Shown here piece by piece: positions 942-29,732 of a stretch of 29,732 nt of DNA. Position numbers and translations under genes: made by a program. The first letter of the stretch is position 1. Each line of letters begins with the position of its first letter. This stretch comes from a virus: positions 1 to 29,732 of IMG/VR virus record IMGVR_UViG_3300037264_003269. The stretch is one strand, 5' to 3'. The notes under the pieces are model-generated. The model had not been told where the DNA came from. It worked only from the letters and a program-made list of their open reading frames with translations, and ran no database searches.

Positions 942-1204
942 TGGGGCTCGTCCCCGTCTCGGGCCCGATCCGCCGCAAGGATCCGGGGGCGGCCGAAGAG
1001 GCCGCGCGGCAGCTCCAGCAGCGCCGCGACGAGGCGACCTCGGCGTCTCGCGAGGCGCGGGGGCGCGCGCGCTCGCGAGGGCTTCCGGACTTCTCCGGCA
1101 CGGCGACCCTCGGGATCCCCGGGGGAGGCGGCCTCACGCTGCAGCCCCTCGGTCTCCTCGGCGGGCACCCCGGGCTCCGCCGAACCCTCGGGGGTAACGT
1201 ATGA
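941..1204 (+). CDS. small Arg/Gly-rich phage protein, partial paralogue of the preceding gene
   Basis: Encodes 87 residues from a GTG that overlaps the previous TAG (TAGTG), and ends in an ATGA overlap with the portal gene. No domain is recognised. It has the order QQRRDEAT, an Arg-rich stretch (REARGRARSR), GLPDFSG, then a Gly/Leu-rich tail. This repeats the order in the gene before it, and the DNA at 779-795 and 1022-1038 reads the same (CGCCGCGACGAGGCGAC). It lacks the hydrophobic N terminus of its neighbour. The tight overlaps on both sides are the best evidence that it is translated. It could be a minor head-tail junction protein, but that is only a guess from position. Confidence 0.55.
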   Translation: MGLVPVSGPIRRKDPGAAEEAARQLQQRRDEATSASREARGRARSRGLPDFSGTATLGIPGGGGLTLQPLGLLGGHPGLRRTLGGNV

Positions 1205-2955
1205 CCTCCGACGCCTATGATCCCAAGCGCGTGTCCGCCGTTGTGGCGGGCCTGGTCGCCGAGCGGGAACCCTACGAGGCCGGCTGGCGGGAGACCGACA
1301 AACTGGTCGCGCCGGGGATGGCGCGTCTGGACCTCGGGGACCTGGATAAGGGCGAGGTCGACGACTCCGAGATCGTGAACTCCACGGCCGACCAGGCCCA
1401 GGAGGTCTTCGAGAACGGCATGGTCGCCTTCACGGTCAACCCCAGCCAGCCGTGGATCCGGATCGAGCCGGAGGATCCCTCCCTCGCCCGGCGTATCTCG
1501 GTCTCGGACTGGGCCGACCAGGTCGCCCAGGTCCTCCTCGACGTCACCGAGGAGTCCGGGACGTACGAGCAACTGAAGAGCCTCTACGGCTACTCGGGCA
1601 AGTTCGCCAACGGCCTCCTCTGGACCGAGGAGAGTTACCGGACACTCGTCCGGACGCGCTCGATGGCGGTGGGGTCCTGGTGGATCGGCCGCGACGAGGA
1701 CGCGGTCCCGAGCACCATCTTCCGGCGCTTCCGCATGAGCGTGCGTCGGCTGGTCGAGACCTTCGGTCGCCGGACGCGCTCGGGGAGCTACGACTGGAGC
1801 AACTTCTCGACCGAGGTCCGTGAGGCCTGGGACGACTCCCACTACGAGCGTCAGGTCGACGTTGGGCAGCTCGTCCTCCCGAACGAAAACTGGAAGCCGG
1901 AGTACCAGAACGCCCGCGAGAAGCGCTTCGCGAGCTGCTACTTCGAGCTGGCCGGCGAGCGGAGTTCCTCCTCGAGCGGCCACTCCTACGCGCCCATGGA
2001 CGGGCGCTTCCTCCGGGAGGGCGGCTACGACGTCTTCCCGGGCCTGTTTTTCCCGTGGGACCTCTACGGCGACGACGTCTACGGGGTGCGATGCCCCGGG
2101 CGCATGTGCCGCGGCGACATCCGCGAGGTCCAGCATTGGAGCCACAAGACGGGGGCGGCGATCGACAAGATCCTGGACCCCCCGCTCTACGGCCCCCCCT
2201 GGGCGAAGATGCTCCGCGTTGGCTACCTCCCCGGGCAGGTGACGGCCGTCCCCGACTCGGATCTCCAGCGGGGCGGCCTCCGGAAGGTCGTCGAAGTCGA
2301 CCCGAAAGTCCTGGAAGCCCTCGACCGCACCGAGCGCATGGAGAAGCGGATCGAACGCGCCTATCACGTCCCGCTCTTCCGGATGCTCGAATCCCTCGGG
2401 GACGCGACGGGCCGGACCGCGACCGAGATCGCCCAGCGGAAGCAGGAAAGCCTGATGGGCCTGATCGGGCCGGGCGTCCGCGTGAACCGCGGCGTCCTCA
2501 TCCCGTACGTCCAGCGCATCTACAACGCCGCCGCGGCTCTGGGGCGTATCCCGCCTCCTCCCCGGGAAGTCGAAGGGAAACCCCTCAAGATCCGCTTCGT
2601 GTCGGTGATGGCCCAGGCGATGCGATCGCTCAACCTTGCCGCGATCGAGCGGGTGCTCGAGACCGCGGCGGTCGCCGTCAAGGTCGATCCCGCGGCCGGC
2701 CGCAACCTGCACGTCCGGAATCTCCTGGAAGAGATGCAGCGTGCTTCCGGCGCCCCCGCCCGGATCCTCCGGACCGAGGAGGAGATCGCGGCGATGGACG
2801 AGGCGGACCGGAAGGCCATGGCCATGCAGGCCCAGGTGGAGCAGGCCGAGCGCCTGGCGAAGACGGTGAAGACGCTGTCGGACGCGGAGCCAAGCTCGGA
2901 AAGCGTGCTGGGCAAGGTCGGCCAAGCCCTGAAGGGCGCAGGAGGCCGCAGGTGA
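1201..2955 (+). CDS. portal protein (T7-type head-to-tail connector)
   Basis: Encodes 584 residues, close to the size of T7 gp8 (536). It matches the pattern of the bacteriophage head-to-tail connector family: a charged N terminus with a WRETDKLVAPGM segment near residues 29-40, a STADQAQEVFENGM helix, then VNPSQPWIRI near residues 80-90, a long stem/wing region, and a C-terminal helical region with GRTATEIAQRKQESL near residues 405-420 followed by coiled, Ala/Glu-rich helices. The portal forms the dodecameric ring at one capsid vertex through which DNA is packaged and ejected. It sits at the head of the capsid genes, as expected. Start and stop both overlap the neighbouring genes by four bases. 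Confidence 0.93.
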   Translation: MTSDAYDPKRVSAVVAGLVAEREPYEAGWRETDKLVAPGMARLDLGDLDKGEVDDSEIVNSTADQAQEVFENGMVAFTVNPSQPWIRIEPEDPSLARRISVSDWADQVAQVLLDVTEESGTYEQLKSLYGYSGKFANGLLWTEESYRTLVRTRSMAVGSWWIGRDEDAVPSTIFRRFRMSVRRLVETFGRRTRSGSYDWSNFSTEVREAWDDSHYERQVDVGQLVLPNENWKPEYQNAREKRFASCYFELAGERSSSSSGHSYAPMDGRFLREGGYDVFPGLFFPWDLYGDDVYGVRCPGRMCRGDIREVQHWSHKTGAAIDKILDPPLYGPPWAKMLRVGYLPGQVTAVPDSDLQRGGLRKVVEVDPKVLEALDRTERMEKRIERAYHVPLFRMLESLGDATGRTATEIAQRKQESLMGLIGPGVRVNRGVLIPYVQRIYNAAAALGRIPPPPREVEGKPLKIRFVSVMAQAMRSLNLAAIERVLETAAVAVKVDPAAGRNLHVRNLLEEMQRASGAPARILRTEEEIAAMDEADRKAMAMQAQVEQAERLAKTVKTLSDAEPSSESVLGKVGQALKGAGGRR

Positions 2956-3284
2956 GCGAGAAGCTCCCCGTCGTCCCGAATACGCTCGTCATGCGCCTCA
3001 ACCTGGCGGGCCGTGCCTACAAGGTCGGCTTCGCCGAGGGCGTCCTCATGGTCCACGAGTGGCACACGGGTGCGGCCGTGTTCCAGACGGAGACGCGCTA
3101 CTCCGATAGCGAGATTCCCCAGCTCGCCCTCCGGGGCGTGCGGGGAGCGCTCATCGTGGCTCATCCCATGCATCCCCCCTACCGGCTCGTGCCGGTCAGT
3201 CATCGGTCGTGGGTCTTCGAGCGGCTGGAGATCGCCCCTGCCCGCCGCCATCTGAAACCGGGGGCTCAGGAGGAAATCCGATGA
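2952..3284 (+). CDS. small conserved-looking phage protein of unknown function
   Basis: Encodes 110 residues from a GTG overlapping the portal stop (GTGA). The frame is open further upstream inside the portal gene, but the GTG at 2952 is the coupling start and begins SEKLPVVPNTLVMRL. The protein is beta-rich with alternating hydrophobic residues, a YKVGFAEGVLMVHEW segment, and a basic C terminus. It has no cysteine pattern, membrane segment or recognised catalytic motif. Its position between portal and capsid genes suggests a head or head-completion protein; this is inference from context only. Confidence 0.6.
   Translation: MSEKLPVVPNTLVMRLNLAGRAYKVGFAEGVLMVHEWHTGAAVFQTETRYSDSEIPQLALRGVRGALIVAHPMHPPYRLVPVSHRSWVFERLEIAPARRHLKPGAQEEIR
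3268..3273 (+). promoter_or_regulatory. Shine-Dalgarno for the two-repeat structural protein
   Basis: AGGAGG lies seven bases before the ATG at 3281 and decides that start over an in-frame ATG further upstream at 3209, which lies inside the preceding gene. Confidence 0.75.
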
Positions 3285-4117
3285 GGGTGATCAAGGTCCA
3301 CGACTTCTCCGGCCCGCTCGGCAAGGAACACGTCGAAGCGCCGGCCGCCGGCAGCGGCGCCGCCGTCACCGAAACGGCGACGCAGACGCTTCAGAACAAG
3401 ACCCTCGACACCCCCGCGATCACGAACGGCGTGACGCACGAGGTCGCGGCCGTGGTCGCCGCCGGCACCGTTCAGGGCGACGCGGCGGCGCTTGCCGGCG
3501 CCGTCATCTACGACGTGACGGCCGCCGACGGCACGAAGGGCGTGAAGCTGCCCGCGGCCGCCACCGGCAAGAAGATCGTCGTCTACAACAACTCCGCGAA
3601 CGCGCTCAAGGTCTACCCCGCCAGCGGCGACGACATCAACGACGGCACCGTCGACGTGCATGTCACGATCGCGCCGAAGTGCTGGGCGGTCTTCGAGGCC
3701 GTGGATGCGACGACCTGGGCGTCGAGCGCCGCGCTCGCCAGCCTGGCGGGCACGGAGACCCTGACGAACAAGACGCTCACCGCCCCGGTCCTGGTGGGCG
3801 ACGTCCAGATCCTGGCCGCCGCCGGCACCGTGCAGGGCGACGCGGGAGCCATCACCGTCAAGTCGGGAGGCCTCGTGCATGTGACCGGCGCCGACGCCAC
3901 GAAGGGCGCCCGTCTCCCGGCGGCCGCGGCCGGCCTGATCGTCGACCTCAAGAACGACGACGCGGCCAACGCCATCCTCAAGCTCTACCCCGCCACGGGC
4001 GACGAGATCAACGCGCTGGGGGCGAACACGGAGATCAGCCTCGCCGCCAAGGTCTCGGCCCGCTTCCGCGCGATCGACGCGACGACCTGGTTCAGCATCC
4101 CGCTCCTCCCGAGCTAG
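3281..4117 (+). CDS. structural protein made of two 124-residue repeats
   Basis: Encodes 278 residues after a strong AGGAGG. After a 25-residue lead the protein is an internal duplication: NKTLDTPAI / NKTLTAPVL, AAGTVQGDAAA / AAGTVQGDAGA, GTKGVKLPAA / ATKGARLPAA, LKVYPASGDDIN / LKLYPATGDEIN, and ATTWAS / ATTWFS occur once in each half. The two halves keep exactly 372 bases of register from the NKTL to the TTW motif with no indel. Such beta-rich modules are common in phage structural proteins; the NKTL motif is also familiar from tail-fibre and virion surface proteins. Placement between portal and scaffold favours a head-surface decoration or head-fibre role, but a tail role cannot be excluded. 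Confidence 0.7.
   Translation: MRVIKVHDFSGPLGKEHVEAPAAGSGAAVTETATQTLQNKTLDTPAITNGVTHEVAAVVAAGTVQGDAAALAGAVIYDVTAADGTKGVKLPAAATGKKIVVYNNSANALKVYPASGDDINDGTVDVHVTIAPKCWAVFEAVDATTWASSAALASLAGTETLTNKTLTAPVLVGDVQILAAAGTVQGDAGAITVKSGGLVHVTGADATKGARLPAAAAGLIVDLKNDDAANAILKLYPATGDEINALGANTEISLAAKVSARFRAIDATTWFSIPLLPS
3395..4096 (+). repeat. tandem in-frame duplication, 372-bp period
   Basis: Two copies of one coding module. Matching anchors are 3395 and 3767 (NKTL) and 3707 and 4079 (ATTW), each pair 372 bases apart. DNA similarity is highest around 3460-3480 and 3832-3852, where GCCGGCACCGT and CAGGGCGACGCG recur. Confidence 0.75.
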
Positions 4118-4120
4118 TGC

Positions 4121-4474
4121 ATGAAGAAGTCGCCCCACGTCCCGGAGGACTGCGGAAGATGCGCCGAGCGCGCGAAGAAGCGCTACGACCGCTTTCAGCG
4201 CTCCCTCCAGGCCGTCATGGCGACGACCGAGGGCCGGCTGGTCCTGGACCAGATCCTCGACTGGACCGGGCAGAACCAGCGGAGCCTCTGGGATCCGAGC
4301 TCGCGGATGCATTGGCTCGTGGGGCGGCGCGACCTGGGCAAGGAGATCGAGGACGAGCTCCTGGCCGCCGCGCGCCCGAGTTACTTCACGATGCGCGACG
4401 AGCGCGTGAAGGCCGCCGAGATGGAAGAGGCCGATAAGCGCGTCGACGAGGAAATGCTGAGAAAGGAACGCTAG
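4121..4474 (+). CDS. Bbp19-family phage protein
   Basis: Encodes 117 residues. It matches what I recall of the family named after Bordetella phage BPP-1 Bbp19: a central FQRSLQAVMATTEGRLVLDQIL helix-turn near residues 25-46, then HWLVGRRDLGKEIEDELLAA near residues 64-83, and a charged C-terminal helix. The function of the family is not firmly known; it lies with capsid genes in related phages and may act in head assembly. N-terminal CGRC (two cysteines) is a mild oddity and could bind metal. The ATG follows the previous stop by three bases without a strong Shine-Dalgarno. It is immediately followed by the scaffold gene. Confidence 0.75.
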   Translation: MKKSPHVPEDCGRCAERAKKRYDRFQRSLQAVMATTEGRLVLDQILDWTGQNQRSLWDPSSRMHWLVGRRDLGKEIEDELLAAARPSYFTMRDERVKAAEMEEADKRVDEEMLRKER

Positions 4475-5251
4475 ATGACTCTCAAGACGGCACCCCCGGA
4501 CGTGAAGGCCCAAGCGGCCACGACGCCCCCGGCGACCCCCGCCGCGCAGGTAACCCCGAAAGCGGCGGCCGTGACCCCGGAGGGCAAGGCGGCTCCCGCC
4601 GATAAGGCGGCCGCGGAGCTGCTGGATCTCTCGAAGACCGCACCGGCGGCGCCGGCAGCGGCCGCGGCCCCCGTGAAGCCCGACTCCCCCGAGGCCGGGG
4701 AGAAGAAGCTCCCGGAGGGGCAGGAGCCCGCGAAGGAGACCCCGCCGGCCGAGGCGACGTATGACCTCGCGCTCGCGGAGGACTCGGCGCTCGACCCGGA
4801 GGTCGACGTCCCGGCGGTGCTGGAGTTCGCCAAGGCGGAGAAGATCTCCCCGGACCTGGCCAAGAAGGTCCTCCTCCAGCGCGAGGACGCCATCAAGTCC
4901 TGGAAGGTCCACCAGCAGGCCCTGACGAAGGCGATCGTCGAGGGCTGGGCGAAGGAACTCCCGACCGATCAGGAGATTGGCGGGGACAAGCTCCCCGGCG
5001 CCCTGGAAGACGCGAAGCGGGCCCTGGCTCGCTTCGGCGACGACGAGATGCGGAAGGTCCTCGAGCAGACCGGCCTCGGGAACAACCGGATCTGGCTCAG
5101 GATGGCCGCGCGGGTCGGGAAGACGCTCCGCGACGAGGTGCTCGTCGACGGCAAGGAGTCCGGCGCCGGCGGCGCGGGGAAGTCGGCCGCGGAGGTCCTC
5201 TTCCCCCTGGAAGAGATCGGCCGGACCCAGGATCCGGGGCCCCCGACCTAG
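4475..5251 (+). CDS. capsid scaffolding protein
   Basis: Encodes 258 residues and starts one base after the previous stop. Residues 1-90 are Ala/Pro/Lys-rich and likely disordered. From about residue 92 (YDLALAED) a helical acidic region follows, including DVPAVLEFAKAEKISPDLAKKVL, a WAKELPTDQEIGG segment, a KRALARFGDDEMRKVLEQTGLGNN motif, and a final SAAEVLFP. This order is typical of podovirus scaffold proteins, which template capsid assembly and then leave the procapsid. The gene sits directly upstream of the major capsid gene, as in T7-like and BPP-1-like phages. No protease motif is seen. Confidence 0.85.
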   Translation: MTLKTAPPDVKAQAATTPPATPAAQVTPKAAAVTPEGKAAPADKAAAELLDLSKTAPAAPAAAAAPVKPDSPEAGEKKLPEGQEPAKETPPAEATYDLALAEDSALDPEVDVPAVLEFAKAEKISPDLAKKVLLQREDAIKSWKVHQQALTKAIVEGWAKELPTDQEIGGDKLPGALEDAKRALARFGDDEMRKVLEQTGLGNNRIWLRMAARVGKTLRDEVLVDGKESGAGGAGKSAAEVLFPLEEIGRTQDPGPPT

Positions 5252-5276
5252 ACGTGAGACGGAGATCATGAAGTCC

Positions 5277-5304
5277 GGGCGCTGGGCCCCTCTGGCCGGC
5301 GCCC
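5277..5304 (+). other. GC-rich hairpin in the capsid leader
   Basis: GGGCGC (5277-5282) pairs with GCGCCC (5299-5304), and GGCC (5285-5288) can pair with GGCC (5294-5297). It lies in the 69-base gap before the capsid start and is not followed by a T run. It may be an mRNA stability element or processing site. Confidence 0.35.
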
Positions 5305-5307
5305 TTG

Positions 5308-5313
5308 AAGGAG
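5308..5313 (+). promoter_or_regulatory. strong Shine-Dalgarno of the major capsid gene
   Basis: AAGGAG seven bases before the ATG at 5321, directly below the leader hairpin. It is one of the strongest sites in the window, consistent with high capsid production. Confidence 0.75.
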
Positions 5314-5320
5314 AAGAGCC

Positions 5321-6328
5321 ATGGCTGTTCTGAGCGGAATGCTGTCGCAGATGGAGATCGCGAAGCGTCGCGACCCCTCCGGCAAGACCATGAAGATCGT
5401 CGAGATCCTGAACCAGGTCCTCGAGATGGGCCGGGACGCGATCTACAAGGAGGGCAACCTTCCGATCGGTCACCAGCTCGCGAGCCGGACGTTCATCCCC
5501 CGCCCCTCGTGGGTGGCGATGGGCGAAGGCGTGACGAGCGTCGTGTCCGAGACCGAGCAGGACGTGGAGACCTTCGGCCAGATGCTGGCCAAGAGCGACG
5601 TTCCGAAAGACGTGGCCGAGATCGGCGGGAGCGTCCAGGAGAACCTCCTCGCCGAGAGCGTCCCCATCCTCCACGGCATCGAGCAGGAGTTCGAGGAGAC
5701 CGTCTGGTACGGCAACCGGGGTCTCGCGCCCAAGGAGTTCGACGGCTACACGATGCGGTTCAACGACCTCTCCGGCCCGACCGCCGACAACATCATCGAC
5801 GGCGGCGGCGTGGGCTCCGACAACTGCTCGATGTGGATGATCGGGTGGGGCGAGATGACCACCTGGATCGGCTACCCCCAGGGCTCGAAGGGCGGGATCG
5901 AGATGATCCCCCGCGGCCTCCAGGACGTGACGGAGACCGCCGGTTCCAACTCCAAGACCTTCCTCGCCTACCGGACCTACTGGTCCAAGAAGTGCGGGGT
6001 CGTGGTGCGCGACTGGCGGACCATCATCAGGGGCGCCAACATCGACGTCTCGGAGATGCGGACGAAGTCGGCCGCGGCGAGCGACCTGACCGAGATGCTG
6101 ATCAAGATGTGGCACCGCGCGCGGCGGGTGAAGGGTCTCGCGAAATTCTGGCGCATCTACATGAACTCGACCTGCAACCAGTACCTCGACATCCAGAAGC
6201 GCGACGACGTCGGGGTCGGCGGCGGCCTCTCGTACGTCAACGTCGACGGCGAGGAGGCGGAGGCCTTCCGGAAGATCCCCGTCCGGATCTCCGACAGCCT
6301 GCTCCCGACGGAGTCCGCGGCCGCCTAG
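5321..6328 (+). CDS. major capsid protein (HK97-like fold, GP7/Bbp17-type)
   Basis: Encodes 335 residues. Motifs match podovirus major capsid proteins of the BPP-1-like group: MEIAKRRDPSGK near residues 11-22, KEGNLPIGHQLASRTFIPRP near residues 46-65, the E-loop-like region, a YGNRGLAPKEFDGYTMRFN stretch near residues 128-146, IDGGGVGSDNCSMWMIGWGE near residues 157-176, and YPQGSKGGIEM. The protein forms the icosahedral shell. A long leader with a hairpin and a strong Shine-Dalgarno precede it; scaffold lies upstream and the cement protein downstream. No clear slippery site for a T7-like 10B product was found at its end. Confidence 0.92.
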   Translation: MAVLSGMLSQMEIAKRRDPSGKTMKIVEILNQVLEMGRDAIYKEGNLPIGHQLASRTFIPRPSWVAMGEGVTSVVSETEQDVETFGQMLAKSDVPKDVAEIGGSVQENLLAESVPILHGIEQEFEETVWYGNRGLAPKEFDGYTMRFNDLSGPTADNIIDGGGVGSDNCSMWMIGWGEMTTWIGYPQGSKGGIEMIPRGLQDVTETAGSNSKTFLAYRTYWSKKCGVVVRDWRTIIRGANIDVSEMRTKSAAASDLTEMLIKMWHRARRVKGLAKFWRIYMNSTCNQYLDIQKRDDVGVGGGLSYVNVDGEEAEAFRKIPVRISDSLLPTESAAA

Positions 6329-11051: not shown

Positions 11052-11711
11052 ATGGCCTGGAACGACACGGAGATCGCGAACCGCGCCCTCGGGGACCTGG
11101 GGTATCGGGACGCGATCGTCGACCTGGCGACGGACACGAGCCTCCAGGCCCGGGTCCTGCGCGGGAACTTCGACCTGGCGGTCGAGGACGTCCTCTCCGA
11201 CGCCCCCTTCGGGGTGGGCCTCCGGATGGGCGAGCTCACGATCGTCTCGGATCCCGACGTCCCCTACAACGATCAATACTGGTTCGCCTACCGCTACCCG
11301 ACCGGCTCGGTCCTCTTCCGGGGGGTGCTGCCGGAGGGGCAGGCCGGCCGCATGGCCACGGAGAAGTCGCAGATCCCCTGGAAGATGCAGTCCGACGCCT
11401 CCGGCCGGCTCATCCTGACGGACCAGGAGAACGCGGAGGGCGAGTGGGTCGTGGCGCCGGCCTCCGGCTTCCTGACCGCGAAGCTCGTCCTGGCCGTCGC
11501 GCTCCGCCTAGCGCTGCTCTCGGCGCCGCGCCTTCGCCGCGAGAACCAGTCGGCCGTCGATCTCGAGGCCCCCTATCAGCGGCTCCTCTCCGAGGTGAAG
11601 GCCCACAATGCCGCCGAGAGCGGCTTCGAGCCGGCGCCGGATCCGCCGTTTCTCCGGGCCCGCCGTGGGCAGACGGGGCCGGGCTGGCCGACGCGGGGGT
11701 GGCTCCCGTGA
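11052..11711 (+). CDS. tail tubular protein A / adaptor (T7 gp11-like)
   Basis: Encodes 219 residues (T7 gp11 is 196). The start MAWNDTEIANRALGDLGY and the LQARVLRGNFDLAVEDVLSDAPF segment near residues 34-56 are hallmarks of the family: helical proteins that bind the portal ring and connect it to the nozzle. A FAYRYP segment near residue 79, an EWVV/PASGFLTAKLVLAVALRLA helix, and a final YQRLLSEVKAHNAAE helix complete the usual order. It is directly followed, with GTGA overlap, by the gp12-like gene, as in T7. Confidence 0.9.
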   Translation: MAWNDTEIANRALGDLGYRDAIVDLATDTSLQARVLRGNFDLAVEDVLSDAPFGVGLRMGELTIVSDPDVPYNDQYWFAYRYPTGSVLFRGVLPEGQAGRMATEKSQIPWKMQSDASGRLILTDQENAEGEWVVAPASGFLTAKLVLAVALRLALLSAPRLRRENQSAVDLEAPYQRLLSEVKAHNAAESGFEPAPDPPFLRARRGQTGPGWPTRGWLP

Positions 11712-14683
11712 TTCTCGTCAACCGAGGATTCCCGAAGGGAGAGCTCTCCGACTCGCTCTACGGCCGGGCGGACACGGTGGACTACGCGCTTGGGGCGAGG
11801 ACCCTCCGCAATTTCCTGGTCGGGAGGGACGGAGGGATCCGGAAGCGCGCCGGGTTCAGGCACGTCGACGAGAGCCGCTTGCCGGCGAAGGAGACGCGGC
11901 TCATCCGCTTCGTGTTCTCGACGGCCACGGGGGACACGTACATCGTCCAGGCCGGGGACCTCTATTTCGAGTTCATCCGCGACGGGGCGCGGATCACCGA
12001 GACCCCCAAAAGCATCACCGCCGCCAGCCAGGCCAACCCGTGCGTCCTCACGTCCGTCGCCCACGGCTTCCTGAACGGCGACGACGTCCTCCTCTCGGGC
12101 TTCCTGGTCGGGATGCTCGAGCTGAACGGCCGGCGCGTGCGGGTGGCCAATAAGACGGCCGACACCTTCCAGATCACCGACACGAGCGGGACGAACATCA
12201 ACTCGCTCGCGTTCGGCGCCTACTCCTCCGGCGGCCAGGCTGCCCGGGTCTACAAGATCGCCTCCCCCTACCTCGAGGCGGATCTCCAGGACCTCCGCTT
12301 CGCCCAAAGCGCCGACGTGATGACGATCACGCACCCGGACTACCCCACCCACGAGCTCTCCCGGACCGCTCACACGAGCTGGAAGCTGCTCGACCGCACG
12401 ATCCCCGTCGACCCGGCCACGGGCGACGTGATCCCGGTCTACGCGGCCGAGCGGATCTTCGATTACGTCTCCGGCGCCCTCGGCGCCGCGGGCGCGAAGA
12501 GCTTCCGCTACCGGATCACCGGCCTGACCCCGAACGGGGAGACCGTCCCCATCTTGGAGGCGGTCCGCGCTATCTCCAACGTCGAGCTGCTGGATCCGGC
12601 GAGGATCACGACCGCGGCGCCCCACGGGTTCACGACGGGCGACGAGGTCGCGCTCCACTTCATCCAGGGCACGGTCGAGCTCAACAAGCGGCTCTTCCGG
12701 ATCACCGTGACGGCCGCGGACAAGTTCACCCTGGACGGCGTGGACGGCACGGGCTACACCGCGTACATCGCGGCCGGCGATGCCCAGCGGACCTACATCC
12801 GGATCGACCTGGCGGCTGACCCGACCCTCGCGCTGCCGAACGTCCTCACGATCGTCCGCAACTCGTCGATCGGATTCGAGAACGACGTCCTCTTCTACCT
12901 GATCTACAAGCAACTTCCGAGCGGCCTTTACGGCTACATCGGCGAGGTGGATCTTCGGGCGTTCGTCCTGGTGTACACGTTCCGAGACACGGGCGAGGTG
13001 GCACCGGATCCGGGGGACAACCCTCCCGAGGCGGGCCCGCGCTTCGACGCCGCGGGCGAATACCCGGCGTGCGTCGCCTATCACCAGCAGCGCCTGGTCT
13101 TCGCGCGGACGGGCGACCAGCCGGACGCGCTGTTCCTCTCGCGCCTGGCCGGCTACCTGAACTTCAGCTACCACGATCCCCTCGACGACCGGGACGGGAT
13201 CGAGGCGGGCCTGGGGTCCCAGGAGATCAACCCGATCATGCACCTGGTCCCCCTGCGGCGCCTGGTCATCCTGACGGGGGCCCAGGAGTGGATCGCCGAA
13301 GGGAACGACGCCGGCACGATCACGCCGGGACAACTGAACATCCGGCCCTACACGAATCACGGGGCCTCCCGCGTGCGCCCCGCCGTGGTCGAGAGCGACA
13401 TCCTCTACGTCCAGGCCCGCGGGAACGAGGTCCGGAATCTCTTCTGGGACTTCGCGAACGACACCTACGGCGGCCAGGACGTGACGCGCCGGGCGAGCCA
13501 CCTCTTCCGGGAGCAGTCCGTCCGGGACATGGCCTTCTCGAAGACGCCCGACGGGATCCTGTGGGTGGTCCGAAACGACGGGACGCTCCTCTCGCTCACC
13601 TACTCCCGCGCCGAGGAGATCCTCGCCTGGTGCCGGCACGAGACGGCCGGCCAGGTCGAGCAGGTCGCGAGCATCCCCGAAAGCGACGACGCGATCCGGG
13701 GCGGCGAAGACGCCGTCTACATCGTCGTCGTTCGGGTGGTGAACGGCCGCACGATCCGAGCGGTCGAGCGGCTCACCGAGCGGACGGTCGACGAGGACCT
13801 GCGGGCGCGCTATCCGTGGTTCGGGGACGAGTGGCTGATCGAGTACCACTTCCTGGACTCCTTCCGCTCCTATAACGGCTTCAACCTGGCCGCGACGACC
13901 CTCACCCTGACGGGGGCCGGCTGGACGCCCGCGGCAACCCTGACCCTGACCGCGAGCGTCGGGACCTTCCTGGCGGGAGACGTCGGGACGGGCGTGGCCG
14001 CGCGGAAGTTCCACCTGTGGGATGCGGGAGGCAACCTCGTGGTGCTCGAGGTCGTCGGCTACACGAGTCCGACGGTGGTCTCGGTGCGGTCGGATCGTAA
14101 CGTCCCCGTCTCGCTCCAGGCGGTCGCGCGGAACACCTGGGCGGCCGCGGTCCGCCGGGTGAACGGCCTCCCCCAGCTCGAGGCCGCCGAGATCTCCGCG
14201 ATGGGAGACGGCCGCCGGATCGCGAACGCCTACCTGGACGCCGCCCCCGTCGTCGTCGCCGGCGGGATGGCGACCTTCGGCGTCGACCTCTTCTCCGCGA
14301 TGATCCATGTGGGCCGGCCGGCCCACGCGGATCTCGAGCTGCTCGACGTCGAGAACGGCGAGGGCGACAGCATCTACGGCCGCATGAAGACGGTGCGGAA
14401 CGTCGGCGCGTACGTCCGGGGCACCCGGACCTTCTGGGCCGGCCGGGAGCTCCCGGAGGACGACGGGACGCCCGGGGCGCTCGTCCTGGGCATGGACGAG
14501 CTCCAGGCCGACGACGCCGCCGAGGTGGTCTCCGGAGACCTGCCGGCGCCGCTCCTCGGGGGCCACTTCGACATCCAGATCGAAGGGGAACCGACCGAGC
14601 ACGGGCGGGCCGCGATCCGCTGCGTGGAGCCGACCCCCCTTGAGATCTCGGCCGTCTCCCGAAGCGTGGAACTGGAGGGCTGA
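11708..14683 (+). CDS. tail tubular protein B / nozzle (T7 gp12-like), enlarged
   Basis: Encodes 991 residues (T7 gp12 is 794). The start is the coupled GTG at 11708, although the frame is open further upstream. The N terminus (NRGFPKGELSDSLYGRAD, YALGARTLRNFLVGRDGGIRKRAGFRH) is the family signature; QRLVFARTGDQPDALFLSR near residue 460 and LTGAQEWIAEG near residue 523 follow. It forms the lower tail tube through which DNA leaves. It carries two related inserts, near residues 97-183 and 295-365, each with an AHGF/PHGF..GD(D/E)V motif, a later ELN, and an F(Q/T) strand before a Gly-rich end. These inserts and further beta segments near residues 725-815 explain the extra length. Confidence 0.9.
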   Translation: MILVNRGFPKGELSDSLYGRADTVDYALGARTLRNFLVGRDGGIRKRAGFRHVDESRLPAKETRLIRFVFSTATGDTYIVQAGDLYFEFIRDGARITETPKSITAASQANPCVLTSVAHGFLNGDDVLLSGFLVGMLELNGRRVRVANKTADTFQITDTSGTNINSLAFGAYSSGGQAARVYKIASPYLEADLQDLRFAQSADVMTITHPDYPTHELSRTAHTSWKLLDRTIPVDPATGDVIPVYAAERIFDYVSGALGAAGAKSFRYRITGLTPNGETVPILEAVRAISNVELLDPARITTAAPHGFTTGDEVALHFIQGTVELNKRLFRITVTAADKFTLDGVDGTGYTAYIAAGDAQRTYIRIDLAADPTLALPNVLTIVRNSSIGFENDVLFYLIYKQLPSGLYGYIGEVDLRAFVLVYTFRDTGEVAPDPGDNPPEAGPRFDAAGEYPACVAYHQQRLVFARTGDQPDALFLSRLAGYLNFSYHDPLDDRDGIEAGLGSQEINPIMHLVPLRRLVILTGAQEWIAEGNDAGTITPGQLNIRPYTNHGASRVRPAVVESDILYVQARGNEVRNLFWDFANDTYGGQDVTRRASHLFREQSVRDMAFSKTPDGILWVVRNDGTLLSLTYSRAEEILAWCRHETAGQVEQVASIPESDDAIRGGEDAVYIVVVRVVNGRTIRAVERLTERTVDEDLRARYPWFGDEWLIEYHFLDSFRSYNGFNLAATTLTLTGAGWTPAATLTLTASVGTFLAGDVGTGVAARKFHLWDAGGNLVVLEVVGYTSPTVVSVRSDRNVPVSLQAVARNTWAAAVRRVNGLPQLEAAEISAMGDGRRIANAYLDAAPVVVAGGMATFGVDLFSAMIHVGRPAHADLELLDVENGEGDSIYGRMKTVRNVGAYVRGTRTFWAGRELPEDDGTPGALVLGMDELQADDAAEVVSGDLPAPLLGGHFDIQIEGEPTEHGRAAIRCVEPTPLEISAVSRSVELEG

Positions 14684-15351
14684 TGGGCCTCGAAGGCGGC
14701 GGTCTTGCGGACCTGACCTTCCTCACGAACCTCGTCTCGGGCGGGGGCCGGATGGCGAGCTCGTTCAGTCGGGCGGGGGCGCTCTCCGGGATGGGCCGCT
14801 ACGAGGGCCAGCTCGCGAAGGACCAGGCGGCGCTTCTGGACATCCAGGCCCGCCAAGTCGTGCGGCAGGGCGACGAGCGGGCCGGGATGGTCACGCGGGA
14901 CGCGCGGCTCCTGGCCGGGAAGCAGGCCGCCGCGGCCGCCGGCCAGGGCGTCGACGTCACCTCGGGCACCGCGGCGCTCATCCAGGAACAGACGATGGTC
15001 CACGGCGCGCTCGATGCGGAGACGGAGCGAAACAACGCCTGGCGCGAGGCCTGGGGCCTCCGCGCGGAGGCCCAGAACGTCCGCTTGGCCGGCCAGGCCG
15101 CCCAGTCGACGCGGAACTACGAGGCGGGGGCCACGGCCGCGACCGGGGGCTATCAGTTCGGGGTCGACCTCCTGCGCGCGGCGGACCTTCACGGTCAGAT
15201 GCAGCTCCGCAGCGTGGGGAATCCCGGCTCCTCGAGCATCTTTGCCGGCGCGTCCGACGCGGCGCTCTACGGCGCCCAGGGCGGCGCGGGCGGCCGCCTG
15301 GCCAACCTCGGCACGTCCGCCAGGTCCGCCCGTCGGGGGCGAAGCCCGTGA
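14683..15351 (+). CDS. internal virion protein (T7 gp14-like)
   Basis: Encodes 222 residues. After a Gly-rich hydrophobic N terminus, most of the protein is a long Ala/Gln/Arg-rich helix: YEGQLAKDQAALLDIQARQVVRQG near residues 43-66, then LLAGKQAAAAAGQGVDVTSGTAALI near residues 76-100, a family hallmark, then TERNNAWREAWGLRAEAQNVRLAG and a Tyr/Gly-rich end. Such proteins are stored in the head or core and are ejected to form part of a channel through the outer membrane. The ATG overlaps the nozzle stop and the gene ends in GTGA overlap with the first fibre adaptor. Its usual partners (gp15/gp16-like) lie about 8 kb downstream. Confidence 0.82.
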   Translation: MGLEGGGLADLTFLTNLVSGGGRMASSFSRAGALSGMGRYEGQLAKDQAALLDIQARQVVRQGDERAGMVTRDARLLAGKQAAAAAGQGVDVTSGTAALIQEQTMVHGALDAETERNNAWREAWGLRAEAQNVRLAGQAAQSTRNYEAGATAATGGYQFGVDLLRAADLHGQMQLRSVGNPGSSSIFAGASDAALYGAQGGAGGRLANLGTSARSARRGRSP

Positions 15352-23176: not shown

Positions 23177-25018
23177 ATGGCCGAGATCCCCCGGTCGGGA
23201 GGCATCCGGGCCCTGCCCGGGGTGGCTCCCACGGTCCGCCGCCGCCCGAGCCTCGGGGAGGAGTCCTTCGGCGGGGGGGCTGCCGCGGCCGGCGCCATGG
23301 CGGCCGCCGGCAAGCTCGCCCAAGGGGTCGAGGACATCGCCGTCCGCGCCCATGAGCGGGCCGAAGAGGCCCAGTTCAACGAGCTGGTCGCCCGCATCGA
23401 GAACCAGGAGGTCACCCTCAAGACCGAGCTCTCCCGGGTCCAGGGCAAGGCCGCCCTCCAAGCCGCCGACCAGACCATCGTCAAGTGGGACGAGTTCGGG
23501 GGGGAGCTCCTGGACGAGGCGATGACCGACCGGACGCGAGCGCGGCTGGCGTCGACGCTCGACCGCCAGCGGGTGGCCCTCCGGGCGTTCTCGGAGCCCC
23601 ACGCCCAGCGGGAGATGGTGGCCTTCGAGGCCCAGTCCCTGGAGGAACGGGTCACCGGCGCCGAGAACGCCGCGATCGTCTCCGGGGATCCCCTGCGGGT
23701 CGGCCTGGCCCTCGAGGACCAGTTCATCGCCCTCTCCCGCTTCGCCCAGCTCACCGGGAAGCCTCCCGAGTGGCTGAAAAACAACGTCGCCGCCCGGGAG
23801 AGCCGGATCCACCGGGGCCTCCTCGTCCGCATGATCGGGCAGGGGAAGGGCCTGGCCGCGAAGGAGTACCTCACCGCGAACAAGGAGCACCTGGTCGCCG
23901 GCGACCTCCTGGCTGTCGAGGACGACGTCCTGCGGGGCTCGGCCCTCGGCCAGGCGCAGAACCTGGCCGACCAGATCGAGGAGAAGTACCCCGACCCGAA
24001 GGACCAGACGGCGCTCCTCAAGAATCAGCCGGACCTGGACCCCCAGGTCCGCGCGATGGTGGAGGACATGCTTTGGACCCGGGGGCAGCGCCGGAAGGTC
24101 ATGGAGGCCGGCGACTACGCGGACCTCCAGGACGAGGTCATGAAGGCCATCACGGGTCCTCGGCCGCTCGCGGGACTGCCGGGGATCCTGGGGGGCCTCG
24201 GGAGGCCCGACACCGCGGAGCAGGCCGTCGGGCCGGACCGCTGGGCGAAGCTCTCGGCCGACGACCAGGCGAAGGCCGCCAAGGTCTTCCGGCAGATGGA
24301 ACTCGGCGCCGAGCCCGACATGCGCGCCGGCGGCGGCTCCGGCTGGCAGGCTTGGACCAAGTGGAGCGGCATCCCCGTGGCCGATCGAGCGAAGATGACG
24401 GACGCTCAAATGTGGCTCCAGCTCCGGCCCCTGCTCGACGACCAGTTCTACGCCGCGGCCCTCAAGGACCGGGAAGACGCGAAGGCCGCCCTCGCGAAGG
24501 GGGAGAACGGGCTGTCCGACCTGGGAGGCTGGGAGGCGACGGTCAAGGACTTCCTCCGCGTGAACGGCGTCACGACCGGAGACTCCGGCCCCAAGAACGC
24601 CGCCGAGCAGAAGACGGCGGCGGAGCTCGAGATGCTGATCCGCTCGCGCGTCTGGGCCTTCGAGAAAGTCAAGAAGCGCCCGGCGGATCCGCAGGAGCGG
24701 GTCGACATCATGAAGGCGGCCGTGAAGGAGAAGGTGATCGCGCGCGCGGAGGCCCCGCCCCTCGCGCAGATGCTGGGAGGGGTCTTCGGCCAGGGACGCT
24801 ACGTCTACCGCGAGGCCCCCCGGCTCGGGGTGCTCGCGCGCACCGAGGTCCCCGTCATTCCCCTGGACAAGATCTCCGAGGCCCAGCGCACGGAGTTCCG
24901 GAACCTCCTCCTGGGCCGGGGGCGCCTGGCGACCGACGAGAAGATCGAGCGCTTGGCCGGTGCATGGTCCAAGGACGACGACGCTCTCCTCGAAAGCATC
25001 CTCGAGGAGAAGGACTGA
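23177..25018 (+). CDS. internal virion protein (T7 gp15-like)
   Basis: Encodes 613 residues after GGAGG. After a short flexible N terminus it is almost wholly helical: AMAAAGKLAQGVEDIAVRAHERAEEAQFN near residues 40-70, a core with FEAQSLEERVTGAENAAIVSGDPLRVGLALEDQF near residues 150-183, LVRMIGQGKGLAAKEYLTANKEHL, and a C terminus with GQGRYVYREAPRLG and a final SKDDDALLESILEEKD helix. This repeats the tetratricopeptide-like pattern I know from podovirus gp15-type proteins stored in the head and ejected into the periplasm (T7 gp15 is 747 residues). It follows the terminator and overlaps the giant gene by one base (TGATG). Confidence 0.78.
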   Translation: MAEIPRSGGIRALPGVAPTVRRRPSLGEESFGGGAAAAGAMAAAGKLAQGVEDIAVRAHERAEEAQFNELVARIENQEVTLKTELSRVQGKAALQAADQTIVKWDEFGGELLDEAMTDRTRARLASTLDRQRVALRAFSEPHAQREMVAFEAQSLEERVTGAENAAIVSGDPLRVGLALEDQFIALSRFAQLTGKPPEWLKNNVAARESRIHRGLLVRMIGQGKGLAAKEYLTANKEHLVAGDLLAVEDDVLRGSALGQAQNLADQIEEKYPDPKDQTALLKNQPDLDPQVRAMVEDMLWTRGQRRKVMEAGDYADLQDEVMKAITGPRPLAGLPGILGGLGRPDTAEQAVGPDRWAKLSADDQAKAAKVFRQMELGAEPDMRAGGGSGWQAWTKWSGIPVADRAKMTDAQMWLQLRPLLDDQFYAAALKDREDAKAALAKGENGLSDLGGWEATVKDFLRVNGVTTGDSGPKNAAEQKTAAELEMLIRSRVWAFEKVKKRPADPQERVDIMKAAVKEKVIARAEAPPLAQMLGGVFGQGRYVYREAPRLGVLARTEVPVIPLDKISEAQRTEFRNLLLGRGRLATDEKIERLAGAWSKDDDALLESILEEKD

Positions 25019-28000
25019 TGCCCCAGGAACTCTTCGCGGACTGGTACGCCCGGAAGCGCGCCGCGCGCGGCGAGCGCCCCGGGATCACCGCGCCCGTGCC
25101 CCAGGCCCCCGCGACCGACCCCCCCGCGTCGACGTTCGGCGACTGGTACGAGAGCAAGCTCCGGAGCAAGGCGGCGATCCTCCAGAGCTCCCTCGAGGAG
25201 GGCCAGAAGATCGACGTTGACCGCGCCGCCCGCGTGCTCCGTATGCAGCTTCGGACGAGCGGAAGCCTCGACCTCCTGGGCGAGCCTGGGGTCCTGGAAG
25301 AGGCCGAGGCCGCGGCGGCGCGCGCGGACTTCGACGCGAAGAGCTTCTTCCGGCGCTCGCCGGGGGTTGCCCGCTACGTCCAAGCGAGCCCCTACTACGC
25401 CGCCCTCGCGAAGGAGGACGTCGGCAAGCTCTCCAACCTCGAGGACCTGCTCCGGCGGCCGCGGGAAGAGTGGCCGAAGCCCGACGAGTTGATTCGCAAG
25501 GAGTCGGCCGCCGCCGGCCTGCGCCGCGCGGAGGCGTACTTCCAGCAGCCCACGATGACGCGCCAGCAACTCGAGGATAGCGGCCTTCCCCCGGGCTTCG
25601 TCACCGCCCAGGAGGATCTGCCCCACAAGACCCCGGAGGCGGCCGCCAAAGCCTTCGAGGCGGAGGAGTACCTGGTCCGCCGGCGAGAGGAGGACTTCGT
25701 CGCGGGGACCCAGGAGGCGGGCGTCGGGGAGACCCTCGGCCGGCGCCTCCAGGAGAATCCCCTCTTCATGTTCCCGGGCTGGTCCGGGGTGGTCGGCGCC
25801 GGGAACGAGCGCCGAGCGCTCGACGCACTTCAAGCGATGGCGGCCGAAACGGCGACCCCCGAGCAGGAGGATTTCGGGGAGCGCTTCGTGCGCCTGGGGG
25901 CCGCGGCTGATCGCCGGGGGACGACCTTCCTCGCGAAGACCGCCTCGATCATGGCCGAGATACCGGCGTTCGCGGTCGAGTTCGGGGCGACCGGGCCCGT
26001 CTACCGGGGGGCCAAGGTCGCCGCCGAGATCGCGCTCCGGGGACTCTTGAAGCGCGCCATGGCCCGCGGGCCGGCGAAACTCGTCCGGACGGGCCTCGGG
26101 ACGCTCGCCGGCGTGGCCGGCCAGGCGGCGGCCGCCATGCCGATCCGCACCCTGGAAGACGCCCTCCGCCGGCAGATCCCCCAGGTCACCTTCGGGGACG
26201 CCGGCGAGGTCCAGGTCCAGCCGGGGACGGGGGACAGCCCGGGCCTCGCATGGGCCCGGGCGGCCCTCGGATCCTTGATCGAGGTCGGGACGGAGCGCCT
26301 GGGCGCCTCCGCGGCCGCGCGTTGGCTGGACAAGCAGGCGAACCGGGTCCTCTTCGAGAGCTGGGCGGGGAAGGCCGCGGGGCGGGACTTCGGGGGCTTC
26401 CAGAAGCTCCTCCGCGCCGGCGGCGTGAACGGGGTCCTGGGCGAGGTCGGCGAGGAAGAGGCGGCGAAGATCCTCCGGGCGGCCGGGGGCCTCGAGGCCT
26501 ACCGGACGACGACGGCGGAGGAGTTCTTCGCACAGGGTCTGGCCTTCGGCGCGCCGCACGTCCCGGGGGCCGTCCTGGACCGCCTCAAGCGTTCGCCCGT
26601 CTCCAATCCCGAGGTCCTGAAGCGGGTGGGCGACCTGGTCCAGGCGATGAAGCTGGTCGAGACGGCGCCCGACCAGGCGGAGAAACTCTTCCAGGAACTC
26701 GCCCCCAGCGTGAAGTACAGCATTCCCGTCGAGGCCTGGACGCGCTACTGGGGGGGCAAGACGGACGAGAAGACGGGCCGCCCCGTGGATCCCCGCGAGA
26801 AGGCCTTCGAGGTCACCGGCAACGTCGAGGCTTACGACAGCGCCGTCCGGGGCGGGGGCGACATCGACATCCCCTTCTCGCGCTACGCGGTCACGATCGC
26901 GCGGGACGCCCAGGCGAACGCCTTCTTCTCCCAGGAGTACCGCCAGGATCCCCTCGAGCGGACCCCCCGGGAGGCGGAGGTCGAGCTCGCCCGCGGGCAG
27001 AAGGAGATCGACGAGGAGGACCGTCTGGCGCAGCGCGCGGTCGAGCGCCTGAACCGCCGGGAGGAGGACGTGAAGGCGATGGCCGTCACCGTCGCCCGGC
27101 AGGAGGCCCGCCGGACGCTGGAAGAGCTCGAGGCGAGCGACCTGATCGCCCAGGTGAAGCAGCAGGTGGGCTCCCGCTTCTACTGGACCGCCGGGAAAGC
27201 GAAGAACGTCGAGGAGCTCGTGCGCTCCGGGGTCCCCCGGGACATGATCGCCGATCCCGCGGAGTCCGCGCACAGCGGCCGAGGACAGGCCCTGTCGATC
27301 GACACGGCCGCCGATCACTTCGGCATGAGCTCCGACGAGCTGGTCGACGCCCTTGGCGAGGCCGCGAATCGCCGGCGGGAGGCGCGGGAGGCGAGCAGCG
27401 GCCAGAACGTCCCCGAGCACGTCATGAGCGCGGTCTACGAACGGGAATTCGAGCGGACCCTGGAAGAGGTCGGGGCAGAGGAATCCGGGGGCCTGGAGGC
27501 GGCGCGCGAGACCATCCGCCGGATGTCGAAGCGTCGCCTCTCGGTCTCGGGGTTCACCGAGGAGGAGCGTGACGCGGCCGCGGAAATCTCGGCGTCCTTC
27601 TTCCGGGCGACGGCCGCTCGAGCGAACGTCTCCCCGACGGCGCTCTACAAGGAGTTCGGGCCACGGATCCGGCGCGCGAAGCGCCCCGGCGCCGCCGCGG
27701 TCGAGCTGGCGCAGACGACGGAGGAGGGCTACCAGAAGCTCTCGGCCCTGCACAACCTGACGGCCGAGGACCTCGTGAACGCCGACAAGATCGGCGGCCT
27801 GGCTGTCCCGTCGATCGCCATTGTCCCCGAGGGGAAGGCTCAGACGAGTTTCGGCCCCATCACCCTGATCGGCACCAAGGACCTCGGGGATCCAGAGAAG
27901 GTGCCGGTCTTCGACGCGGACGCCTACTCCCCCGTGTTCCCCACGGCGGTCTACAAGAAGGTCCCCTCCGCGGTCGCCCAGGAGATCGTGGAGGAGTTCA

Positions 28001-29732
28001 AGCCCTTCGCGAAGGACTGGAACGATGCGAGCGCCAGGGAGGAGCTGTGGGACCGCACCGTCAACTCACCCGACCCTGCGGTGCTCATCCGGCACCTCTT
28101 GAATTCGCGGGCGGGGATCGCGTGGTATCTGGACAGCCAGGGGCAGAGGATCGAGCCCGTCCTAAAAACGATCGGGACTCGCGACGTGGGGACTGCGTTT
28201 GCCGGGCAGCCGGCGATCGACGACCTGGTCGCCAAGCGGGGGCCGCTCCTGAAACTCGACTATCACGACGAGGACCTCATGCGCGAGGTCGGGGCCGCTA
28301 TCCGGAAGGCGATCGACGAGTACGCCGCTTCCGGGGGAGCCGCGGAGGACGTGGATGTGCGGGGGGCCTACTGGGCGGCCGCGGTCTCCGAAGACGGCAC
28401 GGTGGGGGTCGGGACCTTGGATAGACTCGCTCGCGATCGCGAGCGCTTGGGGAAAGTCGAGGTCGACCTGGGGGCTTCCTGGGACGTTGCACGCGAGGCG
28501 ATCAAGGGCAAGGAGGCGGACTTCAAGGACTGGCTGGAAGAGAGGATCCTCCCCCTCTTCGGAGAGCCGAAGCTCGAACTCCGTGGGCGGAAGGTCCCCT
28601 ACACGCTCGAGAACATCGTCGAGGCCATGCAGGGCCGGATCCGGAATCAGGACAAGGGGATGACCTTCGGGGAGGGTGCCGCTCGAGCCAGCGTCTCGAA
28701 GCGGTTCCGCGACCTCGAGCAGATGCGCCGTTCGATCGGCCAAGTCAAGGGAGAGCAGGAGGTTTCCGCGGCCAGGGACAAGGCGAAGGAGCTGCTCGAG
28801 CGCTACCGGGAGAAGGCGATCCAGCACACGGATCTGGACACCTGGAACGCGCTGGACGCTTCGATGAAAGCGATCGCGGACTTCGTCAAGGGAGCGAAGA
28901 CCCTCGGTCGTCTCCGCGGCGCCCTGGCGCGGAACGGGTTCAAGGACGTTCCGGATGACGTCCTCGAGCTCGGGCGCCAGGCGGCCGAGGCCTGGCTCGA
29001 TGCGCCGGTCCCCTACTTCGAGGCGAAGCCGCAGCGCGCCGTCGCGATCTCCGAGTTCGCCGGCGCGGTGGTGCCGGAGGATACCCCGAAGAAGGCCTTC
29101 GAGGTCCTCGAGCGCCACGGTGTCCCAGTCCGGACGTACTCGAGCGAATCGGCGCAGGGCGGCCAAGCGAAGGCCACGGATGAGTTCCGGCGCGAGCTCG
29201 CCGGCAAGGGCGCCCAGGTCCTCTTCCAGCGGGAGGCCGCCGGCGAACGCGCCCAGGAGTTCTTCCAGCCGGCCTTCCACGGGTCGCCCCACCGCTTTGA
29301 GCAGTTCGACCTCTCGAAGGTCGGCAGCGGAGAAGGGGCGCAGGTCTACGGGTGGGGGCTCTACTTTGCGGGCAGGAAGGAAGTCGCGGAGTTCTATCGG
29401 GACAACCTCTCCAAGCGGATAACGATCCCCGGGGCTTCGACCGGCGGCTCCGAGTGGGTCATCGAAGGCGCTGAGTTCCCTGAAGGGCGCTCCGGGCATC
29501 GGGCGCTCGACACCGGCCAGGATATCGACTCGCTTCTGTCCGCCGTTAGGACCGGCTCCGCCGAAATGGAGAAGTACCTTCGCGGGAGGATTGAAAGGAG
29601 AATTGCGTTCTGGCGGGAAGAGGGCGCCCCCGAGGGGAGCGCCGGCGAGGACATGCAGGCACTCGTGGACTTCTACGAGCGGCATGTCATCGCCGTCACC
29701 CCAGACAAGATCAAGCAGCGTCCCGGGGGCCG
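25018..29732 (+). CDS. giant polyvalent internal virion protein (gp16 position) with ADP-ribosyltransferase-like domain; 3'-partial
   Basis: Open from ATG 25018 to the window end (1571 residues visible, no stop). Two FxDWYxxK motifs at the start (ELFADWYARK, TFGDWYESK) may dock it to the core. Residues ~300-385 and 395-520 are Ala/Gly-rich amphipathic or membrane-prone helices. The segment YDSAVRGGGDIDIPFSRY (residue ~606) and the segment LHNLTAEDLVNADKIGGLAVPS (from residue 911) followed by FDADAYSPVFP are patterns I know from phage polyvalent proteins. Near residue 1420, AFHGSPHRFEQFDL and YGWGLYFA (1444-1451) match the ADP-ribosyltransferase domain of polyvalent proteins, with the expected His and Tyr motifs; the catalytic Glu may lie near or beyond the window end. 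No lytic transglycosylase motif like that in T7 gp16 was seen. Confidence 0.8.
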   Translation, partial: MPQELFADWYARKRAARGERPGITAPVPQAPATDPPASTFGDWYESKLRSKAAILQSSLEEGQKIDVDRAARVLRMQLRTSGSLDLLGEPGVLEEAEAAAARADFDAKSFFRRSPGVARYVQASPYYAALAKEDVGKLSNLEDLLRRPREEWPKPDELIRKESAAAGLRRAEAYFQQPTMTRQQLEDSGLPPGFVTAQEDLPHKTPEAAAKAFEAEEYLVRRREEDFVAGTQEAGVGETLGRRLQENPLFMFPGWSGVVGAGNERRALDALQAMAAETATPEQEDFGERFVRLGAAADRRGTTFLAKTASIMAEIPAFAVEFGATGPVYRGAKVAAEIALRGLLKRAMARGPAKLVRTGLGTLAGVAGQAAAAMPIRTLEDALRRQIPQVTFGDAGEVQVQPGTGDSPGLAWARAALGSLIEVGTERLGASAAARWLDKQANRVLFESWAGKAAGRDFGGFQKLLRAGGVNGVLGEVGEEEAAKILRAAGGLEAYRTTTAEEFFAQGLAFGAPHVPGAVLDRLKRSPVSNPEVLKRVGDLVQAMKLVETAPDQAEKLFQELAPSVKYSIPVEAWTRYWGGKTDEKTGRPVDPREKAFEVTGNVEAYDSAVRGGGDIDIPFSRYAVTIARDAQANAFFSQEYRQDPLERTPREAEVELARGQKEIDEEDRLAQRAVERLNRREEDVKAMAVTVARQEARRTLEELEASDLIAQVKQQVGSRFYWTAGKAKNVEELVRSGVPRDMIADPAESAHSGRGQALSIDTAADHFGMSSDELVDALGEAANRRREAREASSGQNVPEHVMSAVYEREFERTLEEVGAEESGGLEAARETIRRMSKRRLSVSGFTEEERDAAAEISASFFRATAARANVSPTALYKEFGPRIRRAKRPGAAAVELAQTTEEGYQKLSALHNLTAEDLVNADKIGGLAVPSIAIVPEGKAQTSFGPITLIGTKDLGDPEKVPVFDADAYSPVFPTAVYKKVPSAVAQEIVEEFKPFAKDWNDASAREELWDRTVNSPDPAVLIRHLLNSRAGIAWYLDSQGQRIEPVLKTIGTRDVGTAFAGQPAIDDLVAKRGPLLKLDYHDEDLMREVGAAIRKAIDEYAASGGAAEDVDVRGAYWAAAVSEDGTVGVGTLDRLARDRERLGKVEVDLGASWDVAREAIKGKEADFKDWLEERILPLFGEPKLELRGRKVPYTLENIVEAMQGRIRNQDKGMTFGEGAARASVSKRFRDLEQMRRSIGQVKGEQEVSAARDKAKELLERYREKAIQHTDLDTWNALDASMKAIADFVKGAKTLGRLRGALARNGFKDVPDDVLELGRQAAEAWLDAPVPYFEAKPQRAVAISEFAGAVVPEDTPKKAFEVLERHGVPVRTYSSESAQGGQAKATDEFRRELAGKGAQVLFQREAAGERAQEFFQPAFHGSPHRFEQFDLSKVGSGEGAQVYGWGLYFAGRKEVAEFYRDNLSKRITIPGASTGGSEWVIEGAEFPEGRSGHRALDTGQDIDSLLSAVRTGSAEMEKYLRGRIERRIAFWREEGAPEGSAGEDMQALVDFYERHVIAVTPDKIKQRPGG

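Follow-up and report, generated by a model that had tools for sequence, protein, structure and literature searches.

Virion gene block and the giant polyvalent gene

We analysed a 29,732-base IMG/VR record, hereafter the window, meaning the whole of this stretch. On its forward strand it carries a podovirus morphogenesis block from portal to GP7-type major capsid protein (1201..6328), in which the portal gene lies at 1201-2955 (Pfam PF12236, E = 1.7e-88) and the major capsid protein gene at 5321-6328 (PF20911, E = 8e-78). The same strand encodes tail tubular proteins A and B (11052..14683; phrog_394 and phrog_376), an internal virion protein at the position of T7 gp14 (14683..15351; phrog_418, E = 1e-25) and a 613-aa internal protein (23177..25018; phrog_1044, 7.9e-10). 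Directly downstream of the latter, also on the forward strand, the ORF of a giant gene begins with the ATG at 25018 and runs off the contig end (25018..29732), with 1571 aa visible. The contig end cuts this gene near the middle of an ADP-ribosyltransferase (ART) domain; intact relatives of its product are mostly 2,500-4,000 aa in length. Carin1, Ab9, PfDIW6 and vir555 arrange their tail, internal virion and giant genes in this order as well, and LS06 does so for the most part. The giant gene had been placed at the site of T7 gp16 by the first-pass annotation. This was borne out for position, as each protein is the final large internal protein encoded in its morphogenesis block, but not for the type of protein: no lytic transglycosylase domain or gp16-type family was found among the Pfam or PHROG matches of the giant protein.

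The 1001-aa protein encoded at 8032-11037 is made up of Thr/Gly-rich beta-type repeats (GTxTWSGLWTHTGLLTV) and is perhaps an adhesin or a decoration protein. Two genes, at approximately 15280-16253 and at 17950-18981, have N-terminal starts that are almost the same (TLPNE.GAARYTG.G.TS.YAFGFYTQNLDDVRVLV), resembling a duplicated tail-fibre adaptor, and a 255-aa protein with a lipoprotein-like signal at its start (LILALAVTGGGC), possibly a spanin or another lysis or envelope protein, is encoded at 22315-23082. The 613-aa protein is a homolog of Carin1 gp33 (“putative lysozyme”) but lacks the middle section in which the lysozyme-like motif is found; a peptidoglycan-cutting function may therefore be located elsewhere in the phage.

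Within the giant protein, residues 58-150 (25189..25467, forward strand) matched large polyvalent protein associated domain 22 (LPD22; Pfam PF18834) with E = 3.7e-6 and 27.5 bits against a Pfam cut-off of 28.6, and Carin1 gp32 and PfDIW6 have LPD22 above the cut-off at the matching place. Residues 903-1051 (27724..28170, forward strand) matched the PBECR5 nuclease-type domain (Pfam PF18814) above its curated cut-off (E = 3.8e-25, 89.6 bits against 25). The structure model of residues 870-1417, the PBECR5 region, had a pLDDT of 91 and places the invariant His, residue 912, in a predicted strand, whereas PBECR5 nucleases are recognised by a catalytic His in an N-terminal helix together with a C-terminal Ser or Thr. 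Foldseek with this model gave nothing significant, profiles of the PBECR5 region and of the N-terminal part found no solved structure (best E across the ART, PBECR5 and N-terminal profiles 0.11), and NCBIfam gave no matches.

Because PBECR5 and LPD22 occur in the same chain, we assign the window protein to the polyvalent proteins. These are recognised by at least two domains of disparate activity in one polypeptide, here PBECR5, ART-PolyVal and LPD22, and by being encoded among late virion genes, which is the setting that the Pfam and PHROG matches of the neighbouring genes describe. Polyvalent proteins were predicted to be packaged and injected by Iyer et al. in 2017, who give ART as their commonest protein-modifying domain (PMC5512222). 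A zincin-like metallopeptidase is common but not obligatory in the class, and is absent from the visible 1571 aa of the window's giant protein. The first-pass annotation was silent on LPD22 and on PBECR5, the match of which is stronger than that of the ART domain, and it is these two domains which identify the protein class. The finding that it reported holds true, as a case of a protein class which is already known; the ART domain is itself of less interest than the slot and the border motif which were found through it.

The ART-PolyVal half-domain

Both motifs which had been read as part of an ART fold are in frame in the giant ORF, AFHGSPHRF at residues 1419-1427 (29272-29298) and GWGLYFA at residues 1445-1451 (29350-29370). 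They lie in the first half of an ART-PolyVal domain (29257..29732, forward strand), located by Pfam, by a custom HMM and by the alignment of relatives, and the second half lies past the contig end. Pfam ART-PolyVal (PF18760) matched residues 1420-1464 with E = 1.3e-3 when the whole protein was searched and E = 7.7e-5 when only the fragment was. The score of 23.9 bits (gathering threshold 31.2) is weak because only half of the domain is present, the match covering model positions 10-48 of 140 only. An HMM built from 50 relatives, the window excluded, scored 97.8 bits over residues 1415-1472 (E = 6e-26, Z = 1e6), while the best of 200 shuffles reached 4.9 bits. Every position invariant across 51 aligned sequences, the window among them (H, G, P, F, G, G, E, G, Q, G, G, Y and Y), is present in the window, and the first 50 or so residues of the domain are up to 70% identical to those of relatives. 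The window ends at approximately the strand which reads GrLYxVxIP in relatives, its last visible residues, PGG, aligning with the start of this strand; PGG was placed by eye, as the automatic alignment is loose in that gappy stretch. It is all but certain that the segment is an ART domain of the ART-PolyVal type, as had been proposed. Viral contigs yielded no near relative in direct searches with the ART half or with the complete giant protein, and a degenerate DNA pattern taken from close to the contig end found none either.

His 1421 (29278-29280) and Tyr 1449 (29362-29364) occupy the places of the strand 1 His and the strand 2 Tyr by which PF18760, of the Tox-ART-HYD2 clade, is recognised. 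Loss of these residues in relatives was not seen, both being identical in 67 of 67 complete relatives. The catalytic triad had been put forward as His/Tyr/Glu; this needs correcting, since Iyer et al. give the ART-PolyVal active site as His-Tyr-Asp (PMC5512222). The third catalytic position of the window ART, according to the literature an Asp in strand 5, falls past the contig end. At this position relatives mostly have FDD or FDE, but the pattern used to find the domain end favours D, S or N. The last conserved strand of the relatives reads N-Y-V-[VI]-F-D, with Asn as its first residue in 64 of 67. In PARPs this place is taken by the catalytic Glu, and with a near-invariant Asn there transferase activity is not assured.

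The fold was examined in L123, a complete relative ART (273 aa, modelled from a 51-sequence alignment, with the same zincin neighbour). Its model had a pLDDT of 87 and carries the His in strand 4-10 and the Tyr in strand 35-38. The sole Foldseek match below E = 0.001 was 9k3a_B from the cyanophage A4 pre-ejectosome (E = 5e-4, probability 1.0). VIA-align gave a Z of 10.1 and an rmsd of 6.4 over 162 residues for 9k3a_B residues 1419-1607, a Z of 8.7 and an rmsd of 3.1 over approximately 105-115 residues for tankyrase/PARP domains, and a Z of 8.0 for diphtheria toxin. Structure prediction therefore finds an ART fold in this complete relative, rather than in the half copy of the window. Chain 9k3a_B is identical to ORF27 of Anabaena phage A-4L, with a match over all 1717 residues, and it reads LYHGT...GSGTYFS in the stretch matched to L123. 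By sequence, the ART profile found no match among solved structures, and the ART-PolyVal and 9k3a_B families remain unmatched.

An ART fold could also serve the ejectosome by giving it structure or by binding NAD, and have no transferase activity. This would agree with the cyanophage A4 structure, where the ART-fold segment is visible as an ordered element of the pre-ejectosome, and with the Asn at the start of the last strand. We nevertheless consider it improbable, as the His and Tyr have stayed identical while the rest of the domain diverges to approximately 35% identity, and as the module is optional (the place which it occupies is empty in 24 of 38 homologs, see below), which is ill-suited to a structural part.

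A cargo slot and its [LF]FQ borders

Similarity between the window protein, Carin1 gp32 and the Ab9 giant protein ends at window residue 1417, directly before the ART domain. The conserved end of the backbone, YFEAKPQRAV...VLFQ, together with the linker to the ART lies at 29014..29268 (forward strand). A backbone profile search returned 80 viral and 22 genome loci; YFEAKPQRAV is present in nearly all of these, and in most it is followed by F-Q or F-S approximately 65 residues later (of 78 proteins, 41 have F-Q and 22 have F-S). Matches to PF18760 were found in 12 of the 78 slot regions, those of relatives included (best E = 2.2e-47). Among 38 homologs which bear a zincin, the zincin directly follows the junction in 24, ART-PolyVal stands between the two in 4 (L013, L079, L082 and L089, with the zincin after the ART in 4/4) and other cargo does so in 10. 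Comparing an empty slot (L078) with a filled one (L082), we found an insertion of approximately 320 aa in L082 only, with 60% identity before it and 50% after it. The zincin region of relatives has HExxH in 62-63 of 67 family matches; it has no clear match in Pfam, and we assign it because of HExxH and a conserved Glu downstream. We are confident that these proteins have a conserved backbone with a swappable cargo place between PBECR5 and a zincin-type peptidase.

The ART of the window sits at a contig end, as would be expected if its join to PBECR5 were an assembly artefact. However, the same PBECR5-FQ-ART join was found in the independent contigs L079, L082 and L089, and the position and class of the giant protein match those of packaged proteins (PMC9144972; 9k3a). 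It is thus very improbable that the join is artefactual or that the protein goes unpackaged and acts late in the cell.

A second cargo place lies just upstream of PBECR5, where other ART-like motifs occur approximately 525-610 aa before YFEAK. ART-like sequences of the VVYHGT type were seen at this place in L022, L026, L062, L069, L074, L089, L093, L105 and others, and in Ab9 it holds a GNAT (residues 785-857). In Carin1 gp32 the insert of approximately 115 aa in the slot itself (L002, residues ~1494-1610; VFRGIGGDSGEGRFYT...IFVLDDSALF) resembles a further ART-type domain, one without a name.

The window has two copies of a border motif, [LF]FQ, flanking the ten-residue linker before the ART: VLFQ, with LFQ at residues 1402-1404 after the PBECR5 region (29221..29229, forward strand), and EFFQ, with FFQ at residues 1415-1417 directly before the ART (29260..29268, forward strand). 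We counted the motif in 139 dereplicated giant ORFs from L009-L190, Carin1, Ab9, vir555, PfDIW6 and the window. In giants with a zincin it was found 97 times against 32 expected, while in giants without a zincin there was no enrichment (37 observed, 36.3 expected). It also precedes PBECR5, precedes and follows the ART and follows the zincin region, thereby bordering unrelated modules. The presence of a zincin goes with the type of border: a zincin was found in 37 of 42 proteins in which PBECR5 ends in FQ and in 2 of 34 with other endings, and among ART giants without PBECR5 a Gln stands at position -4 in 21 of 21 with a zincin and in 6 of 34 without. Where a giant carries a zincin, the borders of one and the same ART module are of the Gln type, and where it does not, they are mostly FS or other. 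In giants without a zincin, F-S was also seen to replace [LF]FQ at many borders.

We considered whether [LF]FQ merely marks ordinary ends of strands and linkers, or recombination seams inherited within lineages, rather than cleavage sites. The motif does cluster at module edges, 77 of 134 occurrences lying within 25 aa of an ART, PBECR5 or zincin edge against 8.7 expected at random positions and 5-13% for control [LF]FX motifs, although the clustering is in part a product of the method, the end of the PBECR5 profile being the junction itself. This, the bordering of unrelated modules and the different borders of the same ART with and without a zincin speak against ordinary ends or seams. The Fisher tests of the association between zincin and FQ (p = 1e-13 and 4e-10) ignore ancestry, however, and when the tree was controlled for the tests were not significant (median p = 0.125 and 1), with few independent events and pairs in the predicted direction of approximately 4 to 0 and 1 to 0. 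Additionally, P1 DdrB, a polyvalent protein which is known to be processed, has no FQ motif. The chances of the non-cleavage reading are about even.

A link between zincin and FQ which is independent of ancestry is not established, and we treat the motif as a lead rather than a proven cleavage site. That the zincin uses FQ as its release site is a tentative suggestion from sequence, slightly short of an even chance. We hold with similar reserve the broader possibility that podovirus ejection proteins may be modular polyproteins in which a built-in zincin would cut at [LF]FQ borders and free effectors, with slots on either side of PBECR5 exchanging ARTs and other enzymes. As a universal mark of polyvalent proteins the motif was rejected, there being no enrichment without a zincin and no copy in P1 DdrB, DarB or DarA. 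Zincins were proposed to process polyvalent proteins by Iyer et al., who name no cutting site in the part of the paper available (PMC5512222). The FQ borders offer a candidate site and a testable rule for such processing, as well as a way to delimit modules in giant proteins which are mostly annotated as “hypothetical”.

Probable packaging and delivery, and comparison with known systems

Taken as a whole, the best explanation of the locus is probably a packaged and ejected polyvalent protein with an ART as cargo in its slot and release at FQ by a zincin. The giant protein, at the T7 gp16 position, would be assembled into the internal core of the virion. Its backbone would carry LPD22 and PBECR5, most likely followed beyond the contig end by a zincin-type peptidase and an extended C-terminal region, with ART-PolyVal inserted as cargo between PBECR5 and the zincin. 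The protein would be ejected with the DNA, the zincin expected past the contig end could free the modules at VLFQ and EFFQ around the linker before the ART, and the ART would probably use NAD to modify a host molecule early in infection.

Packaging and ejection are very probable. A giant protein of the same kind has been detected by mass spectrometry in podophage virions, namely a 4515-aa DarB-like protein (gp69) with 51 unique peptides in the virion proteome of Burkholderia podophage JC1 (PMC9144972). The match of the fold to 9k3a_B is the strongest support for delivery, which is plausible by analogy, as this fold is thereby seen in a pre-ejectosome chain solved for a podophage, albeit in families that do not match by sequence.

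Whether the ART would act on a host target is, in our estimation, evenly balanced. An active ART need not modify RNA polymerase as Alt does: it could instead deplete NAD, modify nucleic acid or hit a defence protein. The ART superfamily does include nucleic-acid modifiers and NADases (PMC9503650), and the domain adjoins a PBECR5 nuclease domain, a type for which action on host RNA or CRISPR RNA has been proposed (PMC5512222). On the other hand, the clade is grouped with the protein-modifying ARTs by Iyer et al. (PMC5512222), and the target cannot be read from sequence; we regard this alternative as rather unlikely. Naming host RNA polymerase or a defence system as the target, as was done at first, is speculation. 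If delivered and active, the ART would be at work ahead of all phage gene expression. It would in this resemble T4 Alt, with the difference that the phage is T7-like.

T4 Alt is a packaged ART which is injected with the DNA, as is proposed for the window ART, but Alt has an R-S-E active site and belongs to another clade and another protein (PMC5512222). Cyanophage A4 ORF27 (9k3a_B) is alike in being a podophage pre-ejectosome chain whose ART-type fold carries His-Gly-Thr and Gly-x-Tyr-Phe motifs; it differs in having no sequence match to the family and in that its ART lies close to the C-terminus of the 1717-aa chain. Cobetia phage Carin1 gp32 and the Acinetobacter phage Ab9 giant protein have LPD22 (weak in Ab9), PBECR5 and the junction at matching positions. 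Neither has ART-PolyVal in its slot, Ab9 going straight to the zincin and Carin1 having its insert of another kind. The polyvalent proteins of Iyer et al. share with the window protein an ART-PolyVal in a large multidomain protein of the virion block, and PBECR and LPD domains also occur in the class; the slot and FQ borders are not described in the available part of that paper, the term LFQ being absent from its main text (PMC5512222). The role of such domains in podoviruses had been called little known, but the ART-PolyVal prototype is itself a podovirus protein, from Roseovarius Plymouth podovirus 1 (PMC5512222). In this prototype the fusion partner is a virion RNA polymerase of the N4-like kind, whereas in the window it lies in a slot after PBECR5, within a T7-like gene order.
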